This document shows, in pieces, positions 1,985 to 10,001 of a stretch of DNA of 64,000 bases. The stretch lies in contig JAUIJH010000002.1 in assembly GCA_030431335.1 (NCBI GenBank), forward strand, positions 1-64,000. The letters are read 5' to 3'. Both the position numbers and the translations under genes were made by a program. This stretch comes from Alphaproteobacteria bacterium (GTDB taxonomy: Bacteria; Pseudomonadota; Alphaproteobacteria; Rhizobiales; Amorphaceae). Position 1 is the stretch's first letter. The number at the start of each line of letters is the position of its first letter. The notes beneath the pieces were generated by a model. That model had not been told where the DNA came from. It saw only the letters and a list, made by a program, of their open reading frames with translations, and made no database searches.

Positions 1985-2725
1985 GTGGCCGATGGCACCA
2001 AACCCACCACGCACACCATGCGGGCCATCGTGGAGCTGCGCCGGCGCATCCTCAACGGCGCCTATGCCGGCGGCACGCGCCTGTTCGAGGTGAGCCTCGG
2101 CGAGGAGCTCGCCATATCCCGCACACCCATCCGCGCGGCCCTGTCGCGCCTTGCCGAGGAGGGGCTGCTGGAGCGCTTTCGCGGCGGCGGCTTCGTGGTG
2201 CGCAGCTTCGCCTACGAGGATGTGCTCGACACCATCGAGCTGCGCGGCGTCCTGGAAGGTACCGCCGCACGCCTTGCCGCCGAACGCGGCGTCCCCCCCG
2301 CCAAGATGACCGCGATGGCCGAGATCCTGCGCGCCCTCGACGGCGCGTTCGGCACCGGGGGCGAGGTCGATTTCGAAGCCTATTCGGAGCACAACAGCCG
2401 CTTCCACGATGCCCTCGCGAGCCTTGCCGGCAGCGCGACGGTGGCGCGCGAGCTGGCGCGGCTCAAAAGCCTGCCATTCGCCTCGCCATCGGCCTTTCTG
2501 ACCACGGGCGTCGCGGCCTACCGCCATTCGCTGACCACGGCGCAGGCCGAGCACCACGCCATCGTGGTGGCCATCGGCGCGCGCGAGGGCACCCGCGCCG
2601 AGGCGCTGGCCCGCGAGCACGCCCGCACGGCGCGCGAGGATATGAAGCGCATCCTGTCCGGCGATCAGAGTTTTGCCGATGCGATGCCGGCGCTGGCACT
2701 GGTGGCGGCCGATGGCACCCGATGA
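1985..2725 (+). CDS. GntR-family (FCD) transcriptional regulator
   Basis: A 246-residue regulator with an N-terminal winged helix-turn-helix (about residues 10-75; core ELAISRTPIRAALSRLAEEG) and an all-helical FCD-type ligand domain to the C-terminus. GTG start with AGGA eight bases upstream. FCD GntR proteins bind short palindromes centred on GTATAC or similar and are usually released by a metabolite of the pathway they control. A perfect GTATAC-centred palindrome lies 48 bp downstream of this stop, in front of the demethylase gene, and again in front of metF, so this is the obvious candidate regulator. No copy is visible in front of the regulator gene itself. Confidence 0.92.
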   Translation: MADGTKPTTHTMRAIVELRRRILNGAYAGGTRLFEVSLGEELAISRTPIRAALSRLAEEGLLERFRGGGFVVRSFAYEDVLDTIELRGVLEGTAARLAAERGVPPAKMTAMAEILRALDGAFGTGGEVDFEAYSEHNSRFHDALASLAGSATVARELARLKSLPFASPSAFLTTGVAAYRHSLTTAQAEHHAIVVAIGAREGTRAEALAREHARTAREDMKRILSGDQSFADAMPALALVAADGTR

Positions 2726-2772: not shown

Positions 2773-2784
2773 TATGTATACATA
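2773..2784. promoter_or_regulatory. Predicted GntR operator O1, TATGTATACATA
   Basis: A perfect 12-bp palindrome 25 bp upstream of the GTG start of the demethylase gene and 48 bp after the GntR stop. The same 12 bases recur at 9048-9059 in front of metF. A/T-rich perfect palindromes of this length are conspicuous in such GC-rich DNA, and the GTATAC core fits FCD-type GntR operators. Binding is inferred. Confidence 0.72.
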
Positions 2785-2808
2785 ACTCATAAAGCGGGAG
2801 GGGTCGGC

Positions 2809-4215
2809 GTGGCCGGTCAAAGCCTATCTTCAGTGATGCAGAAGTATTCGAGCCCAGTCGAGCTTCTGCGCAATTCCATGGTCGGGATGTATGTATACCC
2901 GGTGGTGGCGCCGGAATACACCAACTGGCGTGACGAGCAGCGCGCCTGGCGCGACTCGGCCGTGCTGTTCGACCAGACGCACCACATGGACGAGCTGATC
3001 GTCGAGGGGCCCGACGCCGCCGACTTCCTCAACCATGTCGGCATCAACTCGTTCTCGAATTTCGATCTCAACCGCGCCAAGCACTTCGTGCCCGTCACCC
3101 CGGCGGGCCATGTGATCGGCGACATGATCATCTTCCGCGAGCGGGAGGACAAGTTCATCCTGGTCGGCCGGGCGCCCACCGCGAACTGGACCAAGTTCCA
3201 GGCCGCTATCGGCAAATGGCGGGTGCGCCTGTTCCACGATCCGCGCTCGCCCAGCCGGCCGGACGGCGAGCGCGTCCTGCGCACCCACTACCGCTTCCAG
3301 ATCCAGGGGCCGGACGCCAACAAGATCTTCGAGAAGATCAACGGCGGCCCGGTGCCTGAGGTGAAGTTCTTCCACACCGACTGGATCAATGTCGGCGCCC
3401 GCCGCGTGCAGGCGCTGCGCCACGGCATGGCCGGCGCGCCGGGCCTCGAGATCTGGGGCCCCTACGCCGACAAGCACTACGTGGAGAGCACGATCCTGCA
3501 GGCCGCGCGCGACGTGGGCGTCGATCTGCGTCAGGTCGGCAGCCGCGCCTATTCCACCAACACCTTGGAATCGGGCTGGATCCCGTCTCCCCTGCCAGCC
3601 ATCTACACCGGCGGCGGCATGATGCAGGACTATCGCGACTGGCTCGGCGCCGACAGCTACGAGGCCAACGGCTCCATCGGCGGCAGCTTCGTCTCCGACA
3701 ATATCGAGGACTATTACGTCAACCCGTTCGAACTCGGCTACGGCTTCTACATCGGCTGGAAGTCCGACTTCATCGGCAAGGACGCGCTGGCCAAGATGAA
3801 GGACGGCAAGAACCGCAAGAAAGTCACATTCGAGTGGCATCGGGACGATGTGCTCAAGGTCATCGCCTCGGGCCTGGAGAAGGGCGATCTGTACAAGTGG
3901 ATCGACTTCCCGCAGCCGAACTACGCCTCCTCGTCCGCCGACATGGTAATGAAGGACGGCAAGATGGTCGGCATGTCGATGTTCAACGGCTACTCGTTCA
4001 ATGAGCGCTGCTTCCTGTCGCTCGGCGTGGTCGAGGACAGCGTGCAGGTGGGCGACGAGCTGACCATGCTGTGGGGCGAGCCGGAAGAGACGAAGAAGAC
4101 CTCGACCGAGAAACACAAGCAGACCGAGATCCGCGTGCTGGTCTCGCCGGTTCCTTACTCGAACGAAGCGCGCCAGAACTATGCCACCGGCAGCTGGCGC
4201 GAAAAGGCGCTCTGA
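2809..4215 (+). CDS. ligM: Tetrahydrofolate-dependent aromatic O-demethylase, LigM/DesA type
   Basis: A 468-residue cytoplasmic member of the GcvT (aminomethyltransferase) superfamily. It matches, from memory, the vanillate/3-O-methylgallate demethylase LigM of Sphingobium almost end to end: YVYPVVAPE near the N-terminus, LFDQTHHM, VGRAP, LRHGMAGAPGLEIWGPY, SNTLESGWIPSPLPAIYTG with T in place of the first S, IGGSFVS-NIEDYYVNP, and a C-terminal EKHKQ...VSPVPYS block. LigM moves the methyl of an aromatic methoxyl to THF, giving 5-methyl-THF and a phenol. I chose GTG 2809 because it follows GGGAGGGG; the 824-aa track ORF reads through the GntR gene. Vanillate, syringate, 3-O-methylgallate or guaiacol-type substrates are all possible; the co-regulated metF supports THF dependence. 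Confidence 0.88.
   Translation: MAGQSLSSVMQKYSSPVELLRNSMVGMYVYPVVAPEYTNWRDEQRAWRDSAVLFDQTHHMDELIVEGPDAADFLNHVGINSFSNFDLNRAKHFVPVTPAGHVIGDMIIFREREDKFILVGRAPTANWTKFQAAIGKWRVRLFHDPRSPSRPDGERVLRTHYRFQIQGPDANKIFEKINGGPVPEVKFFHTDWINVGARRVQALRHGMAGAPGLEIWGPYADKHYVESTILQAARDVGVDLRQVGSRAYSTNTLESGWIPSPLPAIYTGGGMMQDYRDWLGADSYEANGSIGGSFVSDNIEDYYVNPFELGYGFYIGWKSDFIGKDALAKMKDGKNRKKVTFEWHRDDVLKVIASGLEKGDLYKWIDFPQPNYASSSADMVMKDGKMVGMSMFNGYSFNERCFLSLGVVEDSVQVGDELTMLWGEPEETKKTSTEKHKQTEIRVLVSPVPYSNEARQNYATGSWREKAL
2890..2901. promoter_or_regulatory. Degenerate operator O2 inside the demethylase gene
   Basis: TATGTATACCCG matches the O1 palindrome at 9 of 12 positions. It is spelled by codons 28-31 of the demethylase gene (Tyr-Val-Tyr-Pro) using TAT and GTA, both unusual in this GC-rich genome. 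Its offset from O1 is 117 bp, close to 11 helical turns. The protein motif is conserved in LigM, so coincidence is possible. Confidence 0.4.
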
Positions 4216-4278
4216 CCGCGCCACGACGCGCCGCGGGCCGCGAAAATGGCACGCGGCGTGGGCGGGCATGATAGAAAT

Positions 4279-4301
4279 GCGCCGGGCCGCGTGCCCGGCG
4301 C
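4279..4301 (+). other. GC-rich stem-loop between the demethylase and dctP genes
   Basis: GCGCCGGGC and GCCCGGCGC form a perfect 9-bp stem around a 5-base loop, followed by CAAAATAAC rather than a T-run. It lies 64 bp after the demethylase stop and 33 bp before dctP. It could attenuate read-through or protect the dctP transcript end. Confidence 0.5.
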
Positions 4302-4333
4302 GCAAAATAACAAACACAATCGGGAGGTTACTC

Positions 4334-5317
4334 ATGGCTAAGCTAATGTCGCGACTTGCCGCAGCGCTGGCGCTGTCGGCCCTCGCCACCGCCGGCGCGC
4401 GCGCCGAGGAATTGTCCTTCGCGCACTTCGTGCCGCCGGCCCACACCATCACCGCCTCGACGGTGGAGCCGCTCGCCAACGGCGTCTCCGAGGCGACCGG
4501 GGGCGATCTCACCATCCGCGTCTATCCCGGCGGCGAGCTGGGCGCGGGGCCGCTCGAGCAATACGTGCGCGTACTGCAGGGCGTCGCGGACATGGCGTGG
4601 GGGCTCCAGGGCTATACGTCCACGCAGTTCCCCAAGACCATGATCGCCGAGCTGCCCGGCGTCATCGACAACGGCAAGTTCGGCTATCCGGCGTTGTGGG
4701 CCGCCTACGATCTCATCAAGGACGAGTATCCCGGCACCCGGCCGATCGCGCTGTGGACCGCCGAGCCCAACATCATCATCATGAAGGACAAGGACGTCCG
4801 CACGCCGGACGATCTGAAGGGCCTCAAGATCCGCGTCTCCGGCTCGGCCGCGGCCGCCGCCGTGGAAGCGCTCGGCGCGACGCCGGTGCAGATGCCGGCC
4901 AACGAGATCTACAACTCGCTGCAGACCGGCCTGATCGACGGCGTCATCACCGGCGCCAGCGCGGTGACCGACTTCAAGATCAACGAGGTGGCGAATTCCT
5001 ACACCCTCGGCGCACCGCTCGGCCGCATCACCTTCTTCGTGGTGATGAACGAGGCGCGCTACCAGGGCCTGAGCGACGCCCAGAAGGCGGCCATCGACAA
5101 ATATAGCGGCGAGTGGCTGTCGGAGAGCGCCGAAAGGGGCTGGAACGCCAAGGCAGACCAGACCATCGAGAGCCTGAAGGCGGACCCCAACAAGACCGTC
5201 ATCGAGCTCGACGACGCCGCGATCGCCCAGTTCGGCGCACTGACCAACCCGATCACCGAGCGAATCGTCGGCGAGGTCGGCGGCGAGGACGTGCTCAAGA
5301 CGATGCAGAGCCAATAA
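4334..5317 (+). CDS. dctP: TRAP transporter substrate-binding protein DctP
   Basis: A 327-residue periplasmic receptor with a signal peptide (MAKLMSRLAAALALSALATAGARA, cleavage after ARA). The body carries DctP landmarks: GGELGAG near residue 60, the LKGLKIRV segment with the neighbouring substrate-contacting Arg, and a MPANEIYNSLQTGLIDG block. The start at 4334 is favoured by GGGAGG and the signal peptide; the track ORF starts 51 codons too early. It is the first gene of dctP-dctQ-dctM. Location between the demethylase and the ring-cleavage dioxygenase makes an aromatic acid or related carboxylate the likely cargo; the ligand is not provable from sequence. Confidence 0.93.
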   Translation: MAKLMSRLAAALALSALATAGARAEELSFAHFVPPAHTITASTVEPLANGVSEATGGDLTIRVYPGGELGAGPLEQYVRVLQGVADMAWGLQGYTSTQFPKTMIAELPGVIDNGKFGYPALWAAYDLIKDEYPGTRPIALWTAEPNIIIMKDKDVRTPDDLKGLKIRVSGSAAAAAVEALGATPVQMPANEIYNSLQTGLIDGVITGASAVTDFKINEVANSYTLGAPLGRITFFVVMNEARYQGLSDAQKAAIDKYSGEWLSESAERGWNAKADQTIESLKADPNKTVIELDDAAIAQFGALTNPITERIVGEVGGEDVLKTMQSQ

Positions 5318-5321
5318 TCAC

Positions 5322-5834
5322 GTGCTCGCGATCCTGCGCAAAGTGGCGGACGGGCTGATCGGCCTGTCCGCGATGGTCGGCACCCTCGCCCTCATCGCGG
5401 TGGTCGGGGTGATCCTGGTCGACGTGGTAGGGCGCTATTTCGGCTCGCCGCTGTGGGGCGCGCAGGATTATTCGCAGATGGGCATGGTGATCATCGTGTT
5501 CGGCGGCATGGCGCTGTGCGACAAGGTCGGCGGCCACGTGGCCGTCGACGTGTTCGAGCGGGCCTATCCGGCCTTCCTCAACCGCGCCATCGACATCGTG
5601 GCGGCGGCGCTCGGGGCGGTGGTGTTCACCATCATCGCCTGGGCCGTCTACGACAGCTCCAAGATTTCGCAGTTGCTCAACTTGTCCACCAACATCGTCA
5701 ACCTGCCCAAGGCGTGGTTCCAGTGGGCGGTGTGCGTGTTGTCGCTGATCACGGCGCTCGGCATGGGCCTGCGCGCGGTGGAACTGACGCTGCGGCGCGG
5801 CGAGGCGGCCCACCACGCCGAGGCGGCGTTGTGA
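5322..5834 (+). CDS. dctQ: TRAP transporter small permease DctQ
   Basis: A 170-residue membrane protein with four predicted helices (about residues 15-35, 48-65, 88-110, 130-150), the standard DctQ layout. The sequence VVGVILVDVVGRYF in helix 1 and the acidic pair after GG-MALCDK are typical. GTG start four bases after the dctP stop. Its own stop overlaps the dctM GTG (GTGA). It partners DctM in the sodium-coupled TRAP permease. The C-terminus is short and cytoplasmic, with a His pair. Confidence 0.9.
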   Translation: MLAILRKVADGLIGLSAMVGTLALIAVVGVILVDVVGRYFGSPLWGAQDYSQMGMVIIVFGGMALCDKVGGHVAVDVFERAYPAFLNRAIDIVAAALGAVVFTIIAWAVYDSSKISQLLNLSTNIVNLPKAWFQWAVCVLSLITALGMGLRAVELTLRRGEAAHHAEAAL

Positions 5835-7135
5835 GCGGAGCCGAGATCGGCTTCGTCGGCATCGGTGCGCTGTTCGTCCTGCTGGCGCTGCGCATCCCGG
5901 TGGCGCTGGCGATGTTCGCGGTCGGCTTCATCGGCGTCGCGGTGCTGAACGGCACCAAGTCCGCCTTCAGCCTGATGGCCTCGGAGAGCTTCACGCTCGC
6001 CTCTTCGGCCGAGCTGGTGGTGGTGCCGCTGTTCATCCTGATGGGCAACGTCGCCGCCGTCACGGGCATGAGCCGGCGCCTCTACGATGCTGCCTACGCC
6101 GTCATCGGCCACGTGCGCGGCGGGCTTGCCTCGGCGACGCTGCTCGGTTGCGGCGGCTTCGCGGCGCTGTCGGGCTCCTCGGTCGCCTCGGCGCTGACCA
6201 TGGGCAAGGTCTCGCTGGCCGAGATGGAGCGGTACAATTACGACGACCGCCTCGCCACGGGCGCGGTCGCCGCCGGCGGTACGCTCGGCATTCTGATCCC
6301 GCCCTCCACCGGCTTCGTCGTCTACGCGATCCTCACGCAGGAGAGCATCGGGCGCCTGTTCCTGGCCGGCGTGCTGCCGGGGCTTCTGCTGCTCGCGCTG
6401 TTCATCGCCACCGTGTCGCTCATGTGCCGGCTGCGCCCCGCCTACGGGCCGGCCGGGCCGAAGACGACGGGCCGCGAGAAGGCGAGGGCGCTGGCGCGGG
6501 CGCTGCCGGTGCTGTTCATCGTGCTCGCCACCATCGGCGGCATCTATGGCGGCATCTTCTCGCCCGTGGAGGCGTCGGCGGTAGGAGCGGCGCTGGTGAT
6601 CCTGATGGGGATCGGGGAGCGGACGCTGTCCCTCGGCGCGTTCTGGCGGGCGGCCAAGGATTCGGTTGTCACCACCGCGACGGTGATGCTGATTCTCATC
6701 GCCGCCCACATGATCAACCCGTTCCTCGCGCTCACCCATGTGCCGCAGGTGGTGGGCGAATATCTCGCGGCGCTGGAGGTGGCGCCCATCGCCATCCTCG
6801 GCCTCATCCTCTTGTCCTACCTGGTGCTCGGCTGCTTCCTGGAGGGCTTCTCCATGCTGGTGCTGACGATGCCGATCTTCTTCCCCGTCATCGTCGCGCT
6901 CGGCTACGACCCGATCCTGTTCGGCGTCCTCGTGGTTCTCACGCTGGAGATGGGGCTGATATCGCCGCCAGTGGGGGTCAACGTCTTCATCGTCAAATCG
7001 GTGGCGCGCGATGTTCCGCTCATCCGCATCTTCGCCGGCGTCATGCCGTTCTGGGGCGCGATGATCGTCTGCCTCCTCCTTCTCCTCGCGTTCCCGCAGA
7101 TCGTGCTGATCCTGCCCAACACCATGATCCAATAG
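5831..7135 (+). CDS. dctM: TRAP transporter large permease DctM
   Basis: A 434-residue protein with about a dozen hydrophobic segments, matching the family length. Typical sequence includes SASALTMG-like GSSVASALTMGKVSLAEMERYNYDD, ATGAVAAGGTLGILIPPS and, late in the protein, GLISPPVGVNVFIVKSVA, the IPPS/SPPVG repeats of the ion-transporter superfamily. The GTG at 5831 overlaps the dctQ stop; the longer track ORF only reads through dctQ in another frame. Together with DctP and DctQ it forms the high-affinity uptake system of this cluster. The next gene starts 10 bp downstream, implying one transcript. Confidence 0.93.
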   Translation: MSGAEIGFVGIGALFVLLALRIPVALAMFAVGFIGVAVLNGTKSAFSLMASESFTLASSAELVVVPLFILMGNVAAVTGMSRRLYDAAYAVIGHVRGGLASATLLGCGGFAALSGSSVASALTMGKVSLAEMERYNYDDRLATGAVAAGGTLGILIPPSTGFVVYAILTQESIGRLFLAGVLPGLLLLALFIATVSLMCRLRPAYGPAGPKTTGREKARALARALPVLFIVLATIGGIYGGIFSPVEASAVGAALVILMGIGERTLSLGAFWRAAKDSVVTTATVMLILIAAHMINPFLALTHVPQVVGEYLAALEVAPIAILGLILLSYLVLGCFLEGFSMLVLTMPIFFPVIVALGYDPILFGVLVVLTLEMGLISPPVGVNVFIVKSVARDVPLIRIFAGVMPFWGAMIVCLLLLLAFPQIVLILPNTMIQ

Positions 7136-7145
7136 GAGTGTCGTG

Positions 7146-8111
7146 ATGGCCGAATTGTCGTTCGACGTCGCACATCTGGGACACGTCGAAGTCTACACCG
7201 ACAAGTTCGACGACAGCCTCGACTTCTTTACCCGCATCTACGGGCTGAAGCTGTCCGAGCTCACCGGGGACAGCGCCTACCTGCGCGCCTGGGACGACTA
7301 CGAGTTCCACACCCTCAAGCTGACGCGCCACCACACCACCGGCGTCGGCCACATCGCCTACCGCGTCTCCTCGCCCGAGGCGCTGGCGCGGCGCGTGGCC
7401 ATCATCGAAGCCTCGCCCTACAAGGTGCTCGGCTGGACGGACGGCGACAGCGGGCACGGCCCCGCCTTCCGCTTCGAGGATCCGTTCGGCCATGTCTTCG
7501 AGCTCTACTGGGAGACGGTGGTGTACGAGCCCGGGCCCGACGACCGCCCGGCGCTGAAGAACATGGCGAGCCGCTTCCACGCGCAGGGCGCCTGCCCGCG
7601 CCGGCTCGACCACCTCAACCTCCTCGCCGAGGATGTGAGCGCGTTCCGCGCGTTCATGACCACTTGCCTCGGCTCGCGCGTGACGGAGGAGATCCGCCTC
7701 GACAACGGGCGCGTGGGCGGCTCCTGGTTCACCGTCAACAACAAGAGCTACGACCTCGCCTGCACCGAGGAGCACGGCAAGGGCCACGGCCGCTTCCACC
7801 ACGTGACCTACGCCACCGACCAGCGCGAGGACATTTTACGCGCGGCCGACGTGTTTTTGGAGAACGGCGTCCATATCGAGACCGGGCCGCACAAGCACGC
7901 GATCCAGGGCACGTTCTTTCTTTATGTGTGGGAGCCGGCCGGCAATCGCGTCGAGCTTGCCAACGCCGGCGCGAGGCTGATGCTGCGGCCGGACGTCCAA
8001 ACGGTGGTCTGGACCGAGGCGGAGCGCAAGAAAGGCCAAGCATGGGGCCTCAAGACCATCGAGACGTTCCACACCCACGGCACTCCGCCCGTCGCCGTCG
8101 ATCCCGAATAG
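7146..8111 (+). CDS. Type I extradiol ring-cleavage dioxygenase (vicinal oxygen chelate fold)
   Basis: A 321-residue protein of two repeated glyoxalase/VOC modules (about 8-120 and 150-275), the layout of catechol 2,3-dioxygenase. The three Fe(II) ligands can be placed in the C-terminal module: His of RLDHLNL, His of RFHHVTY and Glu of NRVEL. Such enzymes cleave catechols next to the diol with O2. The track start is GTG 7143; ATG 7146 is better spaced from AGGAG. It follows dctM by 10 bp. With a LigM-type demethylase in the same cluster, a catechol freed from guaiacol or a methoxycatechol is a reasonable substrate. No hydrolase or dehydrogenase for the meta-cleavage product is present in this cluster. 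Confidence 0.88.
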   Translation: MAELSFDVAHLGHVEVYTDKFDDSLDFFTRIYGLKLSELTGDSAYLRAWDDYEFHTLKLTRHHTTGVGHIAYRVSSPEALARRVAIIEASPYKVLGWTDGDSGHGPAFRFEDPFGHVFELYWETVVYEPGPDDRPALKNMASRFHAQGACPRRLDHLNLLAEDVSAFRAFMTTCLGSRVTEEIRLDNGRVGGSWFTVNNKSYDLACTEEHGKGHGRFHHVTYATDQREDILRAADVFLENGVHIETGPHKHAIQGTFFLYVWEPAGNRVELANAGARLMLRPDVQTVVWTEAERKKGQAWGLKTIETFHTHGTPPVAVDPE

Positions 8112-8154
8112 GCTTCCCGCCCCGCTGCAATTCCGACGAGAGAAGATCCCGCGC

Positions 8155-9003
8155 GTGACCAACTACATCCTGACGCTCATCTGCAAGAACCGGCCCGGCA
8201 TCGTGGCGGCCATCGCCTCCTACCTCGCCGAGGGGGACGGCAACATCACCGAGGCGCGGCAGTTCGACGACCCGGTGAGCGGCAAGTTCTTCATGCGCGT
8301 GTGCTTCGACCACGAGCAGGCGCCGGACGGGCTCGTCGACGGCATCGGCCGCATCGCGGAGCGCTTCGGGATGGAGTGGGACCTGCGCCCCGCCGCCCGG
8401 CCGATGAAGGTCCTGATGATGGTGTCGCGCTCCGCCCATTGCCTGGGCGACCTCCTCTATCGCCACCGCATCGGCGAATTGAACATGGACGTGGTGGGCA
8501 TCGTCTCCAACCACCCCAAGGAGCAGCTGCAGCTCACCGTCAGCGAGGGCTTCGCCTTCCATCACCTGCCGGTGACGCGCGAGAGCAAGGCGGCGCAGGA
8601 GAGCGAGATCAAGCGCCTCGTGGAGGCGACCGGCGCCGAACTCATCGTGCTGGCGCGCTATATGCAGATTCTGTCGGACGACCTGTCCGCGTATCTGTCG
8701 GGCCGCTGCATCAACATCCACCACTCGTTCCTGCCCGGCTTCAAGGGCGCGAGGCCCTACCACCAGGCCTACGAGCGCGGCGTGAAGATGATCGGCGCCA
8801 CCTCCCACTACGTGACGGCGGACCTCGACGAGGGGCCGATCATCGCGCAGGACGTGGAGCACGTCAGCCATGCCGATACGCCCGACGATCTCATCGCCAA
8901 GGGGCGCGATATCGAGCGCCGCGTTCTGGCGCGGGCGGTGCGGCTGCATCTGGAGCGCCGCGTGCTGATCAACGATTCCCGGACGGTGGTGTTCGAAAAA
9001 TAA
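8155..9003 (+). CDS. purU: Formyltetrahydrofolate deformylase
   Basis: A 282-residue enzyme with an N-terminal ACT domain (about 1-80, starting YILTLICKNRPGIVAAIASYLAE) and a C-terminal formyltransferase-fold domain. The catalytic Asn-His is visible in INIHHSFLP and the Asp in ADLDEGPIIAQDVE. It hydrolyses 10-formyl-THF to formate and THF. GTG start 43 bp after the dioxygenase. Placement beside a THF demethylase and metF makes sense: methyl groups loaded on THF are oxidised and removed as formate, regenerating free THF. In Sphingobium the analogous role near ligM is held by formyl-THF synthetase, so PurU would be a variant solution. Confidence 0.93.
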   Translation: MTNYILTLICKNRPGIVAAIASYLAEGDGNITEARQFDDPVSGKFFMRVCFDHEQAPDGLVDGIGRIAERFGMEWDLRPAARPMKVLMMVSRSAHCLGDLLYRHRIGELNMDVVGIVSNHPKEQLQLTVSEGFAFHHLPVTRESKAAQESEIKRLVEATGAELIVLARYMQILSDDLSAYLSGRCINIHHSFLPGFKGARPYHQAYERGVKMIGATSHYVTADLDEGPIIAQDVEHVSHADTPDDLIAKGRDIERRVLARAVRLHLERRVLINDSRTVVFEK

Positions 9004-9030
9004 GGCGCCGCGGTTCGGCCAGCGCCCGTG

Positions 9031-9059
9031 TTGAAATTTTTGCTGAGTATGTATACATA
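9031..9059 (+). promoter_or_regulatory. Predicted metF promoter with embedded operator
   Basis: TTGAAA at 9031 can serve as a -35 box. TACATA at 9054 (17-bp spacer) or TATACA at 9052 (15 bp) can serve as a -10. Both -10 choices lie inside the palindrome at 9048-9059, so a bound repressor would block polymerase directly. The stretch is clearly more A/T-rich than its surroundings. Confidence 0.5.
9048..9059. promoter_or_regulatory. Predicted GntR operator O3, TATGTATACATA
   Basis: Exact copy of the 12-bp palindrome found at 2773-2784, here 24 bp upstream of the metF start. Two identical perfect palindromes in front of two functionally linked genes define a likely local regulon of the GntR protein at 1985. 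Confidence 0.72.
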
Positions 9060-9083
9060 AAAATCCTCGCATGATCGGGGGGC

Positions 9084-10001
9084 GTGACGCATTTGCTCGA
9101 CTTCCTAGCCAGAAAGCGTCAGCCCGACGCTCCGGATATCGACATTCGCGCCCGAATTCGGGGATTTTCCGTCGAGGTGATGCCCCGAACGGCCAACAAG
9201 GTCGACGCCTTCGACAAGATCTTTCCGAAAGGCACTCGTGTATACATAGCCCATATCGAGGGCACGCCGCTGGACGAGATGGTGGCGACCGCCAGGCGTC
9301 TCGCCGACGCCGGCATGCATGCAATGCCGCACATCCCGGCCCGCCTGATCGCCGGCGAAGCGATGCTGGCCGACTGGCTCGCGCGCTATTGCGGCGAGGC
9401 GGGGGTCTCGCAGGCGCTCCTCCTTGCCGGCGGGGTCGCGGCGCGGCCGGGCAGCTTCGCCTCGTCGATGGAGATGATGGAAACCGGCCTGTTCGACCGG
9501 TACGGCTTCACCCGCCTCCACGTGGCCGGTCATCCGGAAGGCAACAGGGACATCGATATCGGCGGCGGGACCGCCATCGTGGACGAGGCCCTGCGCTGGA
9601 AGCAGGGTTTCGCGGCGCGCACCGACGCGGACGTCGCCATCGTGACGCAGTTCCTGTTCGAGGCGGAGCCGCTCCTGGGCTGGATCGCGCGCCTGCGCGA
9701 AGCGGGCATCACGCTGCCGGTGCACGCGGGCCTCGCCGGCCCGGCCAAACTCACGACGTTGATCAAGTACGCGGCCAGTTGCGGCGTCGGCGCCTCGCTC
9801 AAGGTGCTGCAGCGGCGCGCGCTCGATGTCGGCCGGCTGATGGTCCCCTACGAGCCGACCGACATCATCGCCGATATCGTGCGTGCGGAGCGGGCGGCCG
9901 GCGCGCCGCTGGTGGAGCAGCTGCACTTCTTCCCCTTCGGCGGCATCAAGGCGTGCGCCGATTGGGCGAGGCGCAAGAGCGGCGAAGCGGCGGCGCGGTA
10001 G
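9084..10001 (+). CDS. metF: Methylenetetrahydrofolate reductase
   Basis: A 305-residue FAD TIM-barrel enzyme. The family motif AGHPEGN is at about residues 151-157, with an early SVEVMP-like segment containing the usual catalytic Glu, and a late LHFFPFGG close to the family's F-P-F/L-GG signature. It interconverts 5-methyl-THF and 5,10-methylene-THF. Beside a methyl-loading demethylase it would run in the oxidative direction, returning methyl-THF to the C1 pool, as proposed for metF next to ligM in Sphingobium. GTG start after GGGGGG. It has its own promoter and operator rather than relying only on read-through from purU. Confidence 0.9.
   Translation: MTHLLDFLARKRQPDAPDIDIRARIRGFSVEVMPRTANKVDAFDKIFPKGTRVYIAHIEGTPLDEMVATARRLADAGMHAMPHIPARLIAGEAMLADWLARYCGEAGVSQALLLAGGVAARPGSFASSMEMMETGLFDRYGFTRLHVAGHPEGNRDIDIGGGTAIVDEALRWKQGFAARTDADVAIVTQFLFEAEPLLGWIARLREAGITLPVHAGLAGPAKLTTLIKYAASCGVGASLKVLQRRALDVGRLMVPYEPTDIIADIVRAERAAGAPLVEQLHFFPFGGIKACADWARRKSGEAAAR
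9237..9248. promoter_or_regulatory. Degenerate operator O4 inside metF
   Basis: CGTGTATACATA matches the palindrome at 10 of 12 positions. It encodes Arg-Val-Tyr-Ile (metF codons 52-55) with GTA and ATA; ATA is among the rarest codons in such a genome. It lies 189 bp (18 helical turns) from O3. Confidence 0.45.

Follow-up and report, generated by a model that had tools for sequence, protein, structure and literature searches.

The 64-kb stretch of DNA analysed here (the window) carries a cluster of eight genes running from a repressor gene to a metF-like gene:

1985..2725, + strand: gntR/vanR-like repressor gene (FCD, VanR group, Atu1419 relative); Pfam GntR and FCD; PDB 6z74, E = 5.1e-69
2836..4215, + strand: ligM, tetrahydrofolate-dependent vanillate/3-O-methylgallate O-demethylase; NF047885, 634 bits; PDB 5x1i, E = 8e-163
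4334..5317, + strand: TRAP transporter DctP; Pfam DctP
5322..5834, + strand: TRAP transporter DctQ; Pfam DctQ
5831..7135, + strand: TRAP transporter DctM; Pfam DctM, TIGR00786
7143..8111, + strand: extradiol (catechol 2,3-dioxygenase-like) dioxygenase; TIGR03211, 292 bits, under the cut-off of 320
8155..9003, + strand: purU, formyltetrahydrofolate deformylase; TIGR00655 above cut-off
9084..10001, + strand: metF-like methylenetetrahydrofolate reductase (MTHFR), divergent; PDB 7xg9, E = 4.5e-42; weak TIGR00676/677

This gene set fits a pathway in which O-demethylation loads the methyl group onto tetrahydrofolate (THF) and the group is then recycled. The LigM score exceeds the curated equivalog cut-off of NF047885 (580). 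The metF product (9084-10001) has no Pfam match and its TIGR MTHFR scores (TIGR00676) are under cut-off, while its best PDB match is the MTHFR 7xg9; we therefore assign it to a divergent MTHFR branch, one that escapes family searches. Elsewhere in the same genus, seven further genomes contain no comparably close match to gntR (E <= 1e-42) or metF (E <= 1e-40), so the cluster was either gained by transfer or lost in these relatives.

Four operator sites around ligM and metF

An earlier note on this DNA had proposed that a perfect palindrome ahead of the demethylase gene and metF, with a degenerate copy inside each gene, forms paired operators for looping by the GntR protein. Both exact copies and both internal copies (9/12 and 10/12) are present, and the proposed distances of 117 bp (O1-O1') and 189 bp (O2-O2') are correct:

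2773..2784, no strand: operator O1, perfect palindrome TATGTATACATA, upstream of ligM; exact match
2890..2901, no strand: intragenic degenerate operator O1' in ligM, TATGTATACCCG, 9/12; codons TAT GTA TAC CCG (YVYP)
9048..9059, no strand: operator O2, perfect palindrome TATGTATACATA, upstream of metF; exact match
9237..9248, no strand: intragenic operator O2' in metF, CGTGTATACATA, 10/12; codons CGT GTA TAC ATA (RVYI)

These sites are rare. A search of 5.61 Mb in 285 contigs returned only the two exact copies of TATGTATACATA at 2773 and 9048, and six copies of the 8-bp core TGTATACA, three of them within the 6.5-kb stretch considered here; the motif is not common in this genome. Within the window, the 12-mer occurs three times at two mismatches or fewer, against 0.01 expected from shuffled sequences. 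We also scanned for sites with at most two mismatches to ATGTATACAT, demanding G3 and C8 since this guanine and cytosine are essential for Atu1419 binding. Exactly four sites were retained in the window, at 2774, 2891, 9049 and 9238, the same four that had been named before; those at 2774 and 9049, near ligM and metF, are perfect. The genome-wide and window counts rule out a chance origin.

The ligM-internal site has a good half-site on one side only. The codons that spell the internal sites had been described as rare: in the eight cluster genes this holds for GTA (6/210 Val) and ATA (3/147 Ile), but TAT is common (23/72 Tyr). No operator was found in front of gntR (1985) itself, and a consensus scan detected no sigma-70 promoter at the operators. 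The genome's remaining TGTATACA sites, at L004, L005 and L015, have no GntR relative inside their 3-kb loci. The site of L015 (TAGTGTATACAATTAG, contig C196:37972) lies in an apparent promoter region.

A repressor of the VanR/Atu1419 type

The GntR protein encoded at 1985 combines a GntR winged helix-turn-helix with an FCD effector domain (PF00392 and PF07729, both above cut-off). A phmmer search of solved structures places it closest to 6z74, Atu1419 of Agrobacterium fabrum. In the alignment to 6z74, the DNA-contact residues (R31, E34, R45, T46, R49, G66), the zinc ligands (N137, H141, H192, H214) and the published dimer-interface residues are all identical. At the tetramer interface, helices alpha8/alpha9 are well conserved and the short alpha5-alpha6 loop differs; in the effector pocket, R86 is kept and N221 is replaced by D, a difference from Atu1419.

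Atu1419 is a VanR-type GntR/FCD repressor that binds ATGTATACAT as its operator and represses metF (atu1418), ligM (atu1420) and its own gene (PMC7797058). It is tetrameric in all states, is released by its effector 5,10-methylene-tetrahydrofolate, and binds each palindrome on its own; electron microscopy makes visible both DNA loops and tetramers on single sites (PMC7797058). A degenerate palindrome inside atu1420, 109 bp from the promoter palindrome, was bound in EMSA (PMC7797058); the corresponding gap is 107 bp here. Our cluster thus has in common with that of A. fabrum C58 the regulator subgroup, the palindrome, the two target enzymes and the DNA-contact and zinc residues. It differs in the partner site of metF, which is inside metF here (189 bp) and in the metF-gntR intergenic region in A. 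fabrum (190 bp), in lacking the operator for autoregulation of gntR, and in including the TRAP transporter, the extradiol dioxygenase and purU.

Because this relative has published binding and loops and the key residues are kept, the paired-operator reading is well supported. From this homology we infer that the protein at 1985 would also bind its sites as a tetramer, form loops and respond to the same effector. The idea put forward earlier is correct in its main points. The paired-operator system of this locus is largely explained by known biology.

Could the sites be used by a different GntR/FadR-family regulator rather than by the adjacent protein? Their core does resemble the general FadR-subfamily consensus (PMC4494728), and a first look at the genome yielded 84 candidate regulators, one of which matches at E <= 1e-20. 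However, the sites travel with orthologues of gntR (1985) across many genera, at the targets ligM, metF and vanA, and the closest characterised relative binds exactly the same palindrome (PMC7797058). We consider another regulator hardly conceivable.

Codon choice at the intragenic sites

Searches of one order and of named genomes gave 110 distinct loci after duplicate removal. A perfect or near-perfect operator lies at -52 to -76, mostly at -64, in 70 of 71 ligM loci, and GTATAC is kept at the YVYP codons in 51 of these 71 genes and missing in the other 20; where both sites occur, most spacings of the O1-O1' type are 117-122 bp. The valine of YVYP is encoded by GTA in 52 of 70 ligM genes, compared with a median of 1.5% at conserved Val columns of the same genes, and this column ranks first of 23 for GTA use. 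Where LigM homologues come from lineages further away and their 4.3-kb loci give no VanR hit, the same valine is encoded by GTC or GTG. Judged from these sequences, codon choice maintains the ligM-internal site in Hyphomicrobiales and Rhodobacterales. We also considered a compensation, in which ligM genes devoid of the internal site would acquire a partner upstream (5/19 vs 2/51, p = 0.014); it was unsupported on independent tree pairs and we dropped it as a claim.

The upstream operator has a counterpart at 30 of 49 related metF genes. GTATAC is found at the RVYI codons in 9 of the 49 loci and is absent from 40; it occurs only with the gene's own upstream operator (9/30 vs 0/19; Fisher p = 0.007, a value that ignores descent), and on independent tree pairs this association is not significant. 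The metF-internal site requires six changes on the tree and may have a single origin. The two metF sites are 189-192 bp apart in seven of the nine loci and 292-297 bp in two.

A third gene shows a comparable arrangement. At loci of the Rieske demethylase VanA (L092-L107, L185, L191, L197, L199 and L203), vanA itself contains the TGTATACA core, at a distance of 290-307 bp from the operator ahead of it, in the codons TGT GTA TAC ATG (CVYM), with GTA in 17/17 and TGT in 16/17. VanA proteins that are more distantly related and lack the site read CT[F/H/Y]M in place of CVYM. The Atu1419 paper makes no mention of vanA (PMC7797058).

The amino acids of YVYP and RVYI are conserved with or without a site, and one could argue that the degenerate internal copies are a mere coincidence of these protein motifs. 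Synonymous codons are nevertheless free elsewhere and fixed to GTA at the internal sites; related genes without operators do not use the odd codons, with GTC/GTG/CGC/TAT found instead for LigM in other lineages and for those MetF that have no operator of their own; and the window contains no further site of equal quality. On these codon statistics we reject the coincidence as very improbable.

Operator spacing and the proposed repression loops

Is the spacing of paired sites compatible with looping? Outside the ligM-internal class, pairs cluster at 62-65, 71-75, 84-87, 95-98 and 106-110 bp; degenerate sites have a low background frequency (0.086 per kb). The distinct distances of these pairs between 50 and 140 bp are periodic, with a best period of 10.5-10.8 bp (p = 2e-4); when one random pair is drawn per genus over 27 genera, in the same range and with the same class left out, the register has a median p of 6e-5. 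The ligM-internal pairs, with a mode of 119-120 bp, are about 3-4 bp off the register of the others, and pairs 140-320 bp apart have no significant register. Taken together, these patterns support loops without proving one for every pair.

The offset of the ligM-internal pairs is one reason to ask whether the internal sites, as real binding sites, act as roadblocks or local repressor reservoirs without DNA loops. Intragenic repressor sites can block elongation, and the single-site binding and single-site tetramers of Atu1419 (PMC7797058) would suit such a role. It does not, however, account for the helical register that the remaining pairs keep over 27 genera, for the loops observed with Atu1419 (PMC7797058), or for the narrow spacing in ligM (mostly 117-122 bp) and in seven of nine metF loci (189-192 bp), and we find it unlikely.

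We regard as very probable, instead, a VanR/Atu1419-type system of methoxy-aromatic (lignin-type) metabolism with promoter and intragenic operators, looping, and release by 5,10-methylene-THF. As a pair of dimers, the tetrameric GntR protein would bind palindromes resembling ATGTATACAT and would bridge each promoter operator (O1, O2) to the auxiliary operator downstream in the same gene (O1' by 117 bp, O2' by 189 bp), closing a repression loop around the ligM and metF promoters. LigM would demethylate vanillate or 3-O-methylgallate, yielding methyl-THF, which MetF would oxidise to 5,10-methylene-THF, releasing the repressor; PurU would help to return C1 units to free THF. As the product of MetF would itself release the repressor, metF would be part of a positive feedback loop.

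A similar architecture is known in the lac operon, where the LacI tetramer bridges the promoter operator O1 and the intragenic O2 in lacZ. Both systems would have a tetramer spanning a promoter operator and a coding-region operator; LacI, however, belongs to an unrelated protein family, and in our case a target enzyme would itself produce the inducer, a form of a cofactor. The comparison of Atu1419 with LacI is also made in PMC7797058. Sphingobium sp. SYK-6, which catabolises vanillate and syringate, has a homologous THF-dependent O-demethylase LigM, beside which a MetF is named (PMC7797058). Its published regulator is the MarR-type DesR (PMC6888825), in contrast to the GntR protein here.

Coding-embedded auxiliary operators are likely to be a general, selected design of the VanR-type family: GTATAC stands at a fixed codon position in no fewer than three unrelated genes (ligM, metF and vanA), the operator would have shaped synonymous codons (and, for vanA, possibly the amino acids too, CVYM vs CT[F/H/Y]M), and most other pairs are in register across many genera. 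In the limited open-access literature covered, we found no published account of the ligM codon constraint, of the metF- and vanA-internal sites or of the pair register. A single characterised case, Atu1419, would in this way be extended to a widespread repressor family in lignin-derived aromatic and C1 metabolism, and would illustrate clearly how regulatory DNA can restrict the codons used within enzymes. The natural series of operator spacings could be used to test helical phase control of repression loops, and recoding of ligM, metF or vanA in synthetic biology could silently lose an operator.

The regulon may have a further member in Rhizobium. In related loci there, a degenerate site, GAGTATACAT, overlaps the start codon of an apparent transporter-type binding-protein gene whose product begins like a signal peptide, and an operator lies 119-121 bp from this site. 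The combination of operator and degenerate site suggests that this gene belongs to the regulon. The pairs are located as follows:

L135:16920-17039, operator and GAGTATACAT
L171:16999-17120, operator and GAGTATACAT
L178:17105-17225, operator and GAGTATACAT
L179:16991-17111, operator and GAGTATACAT
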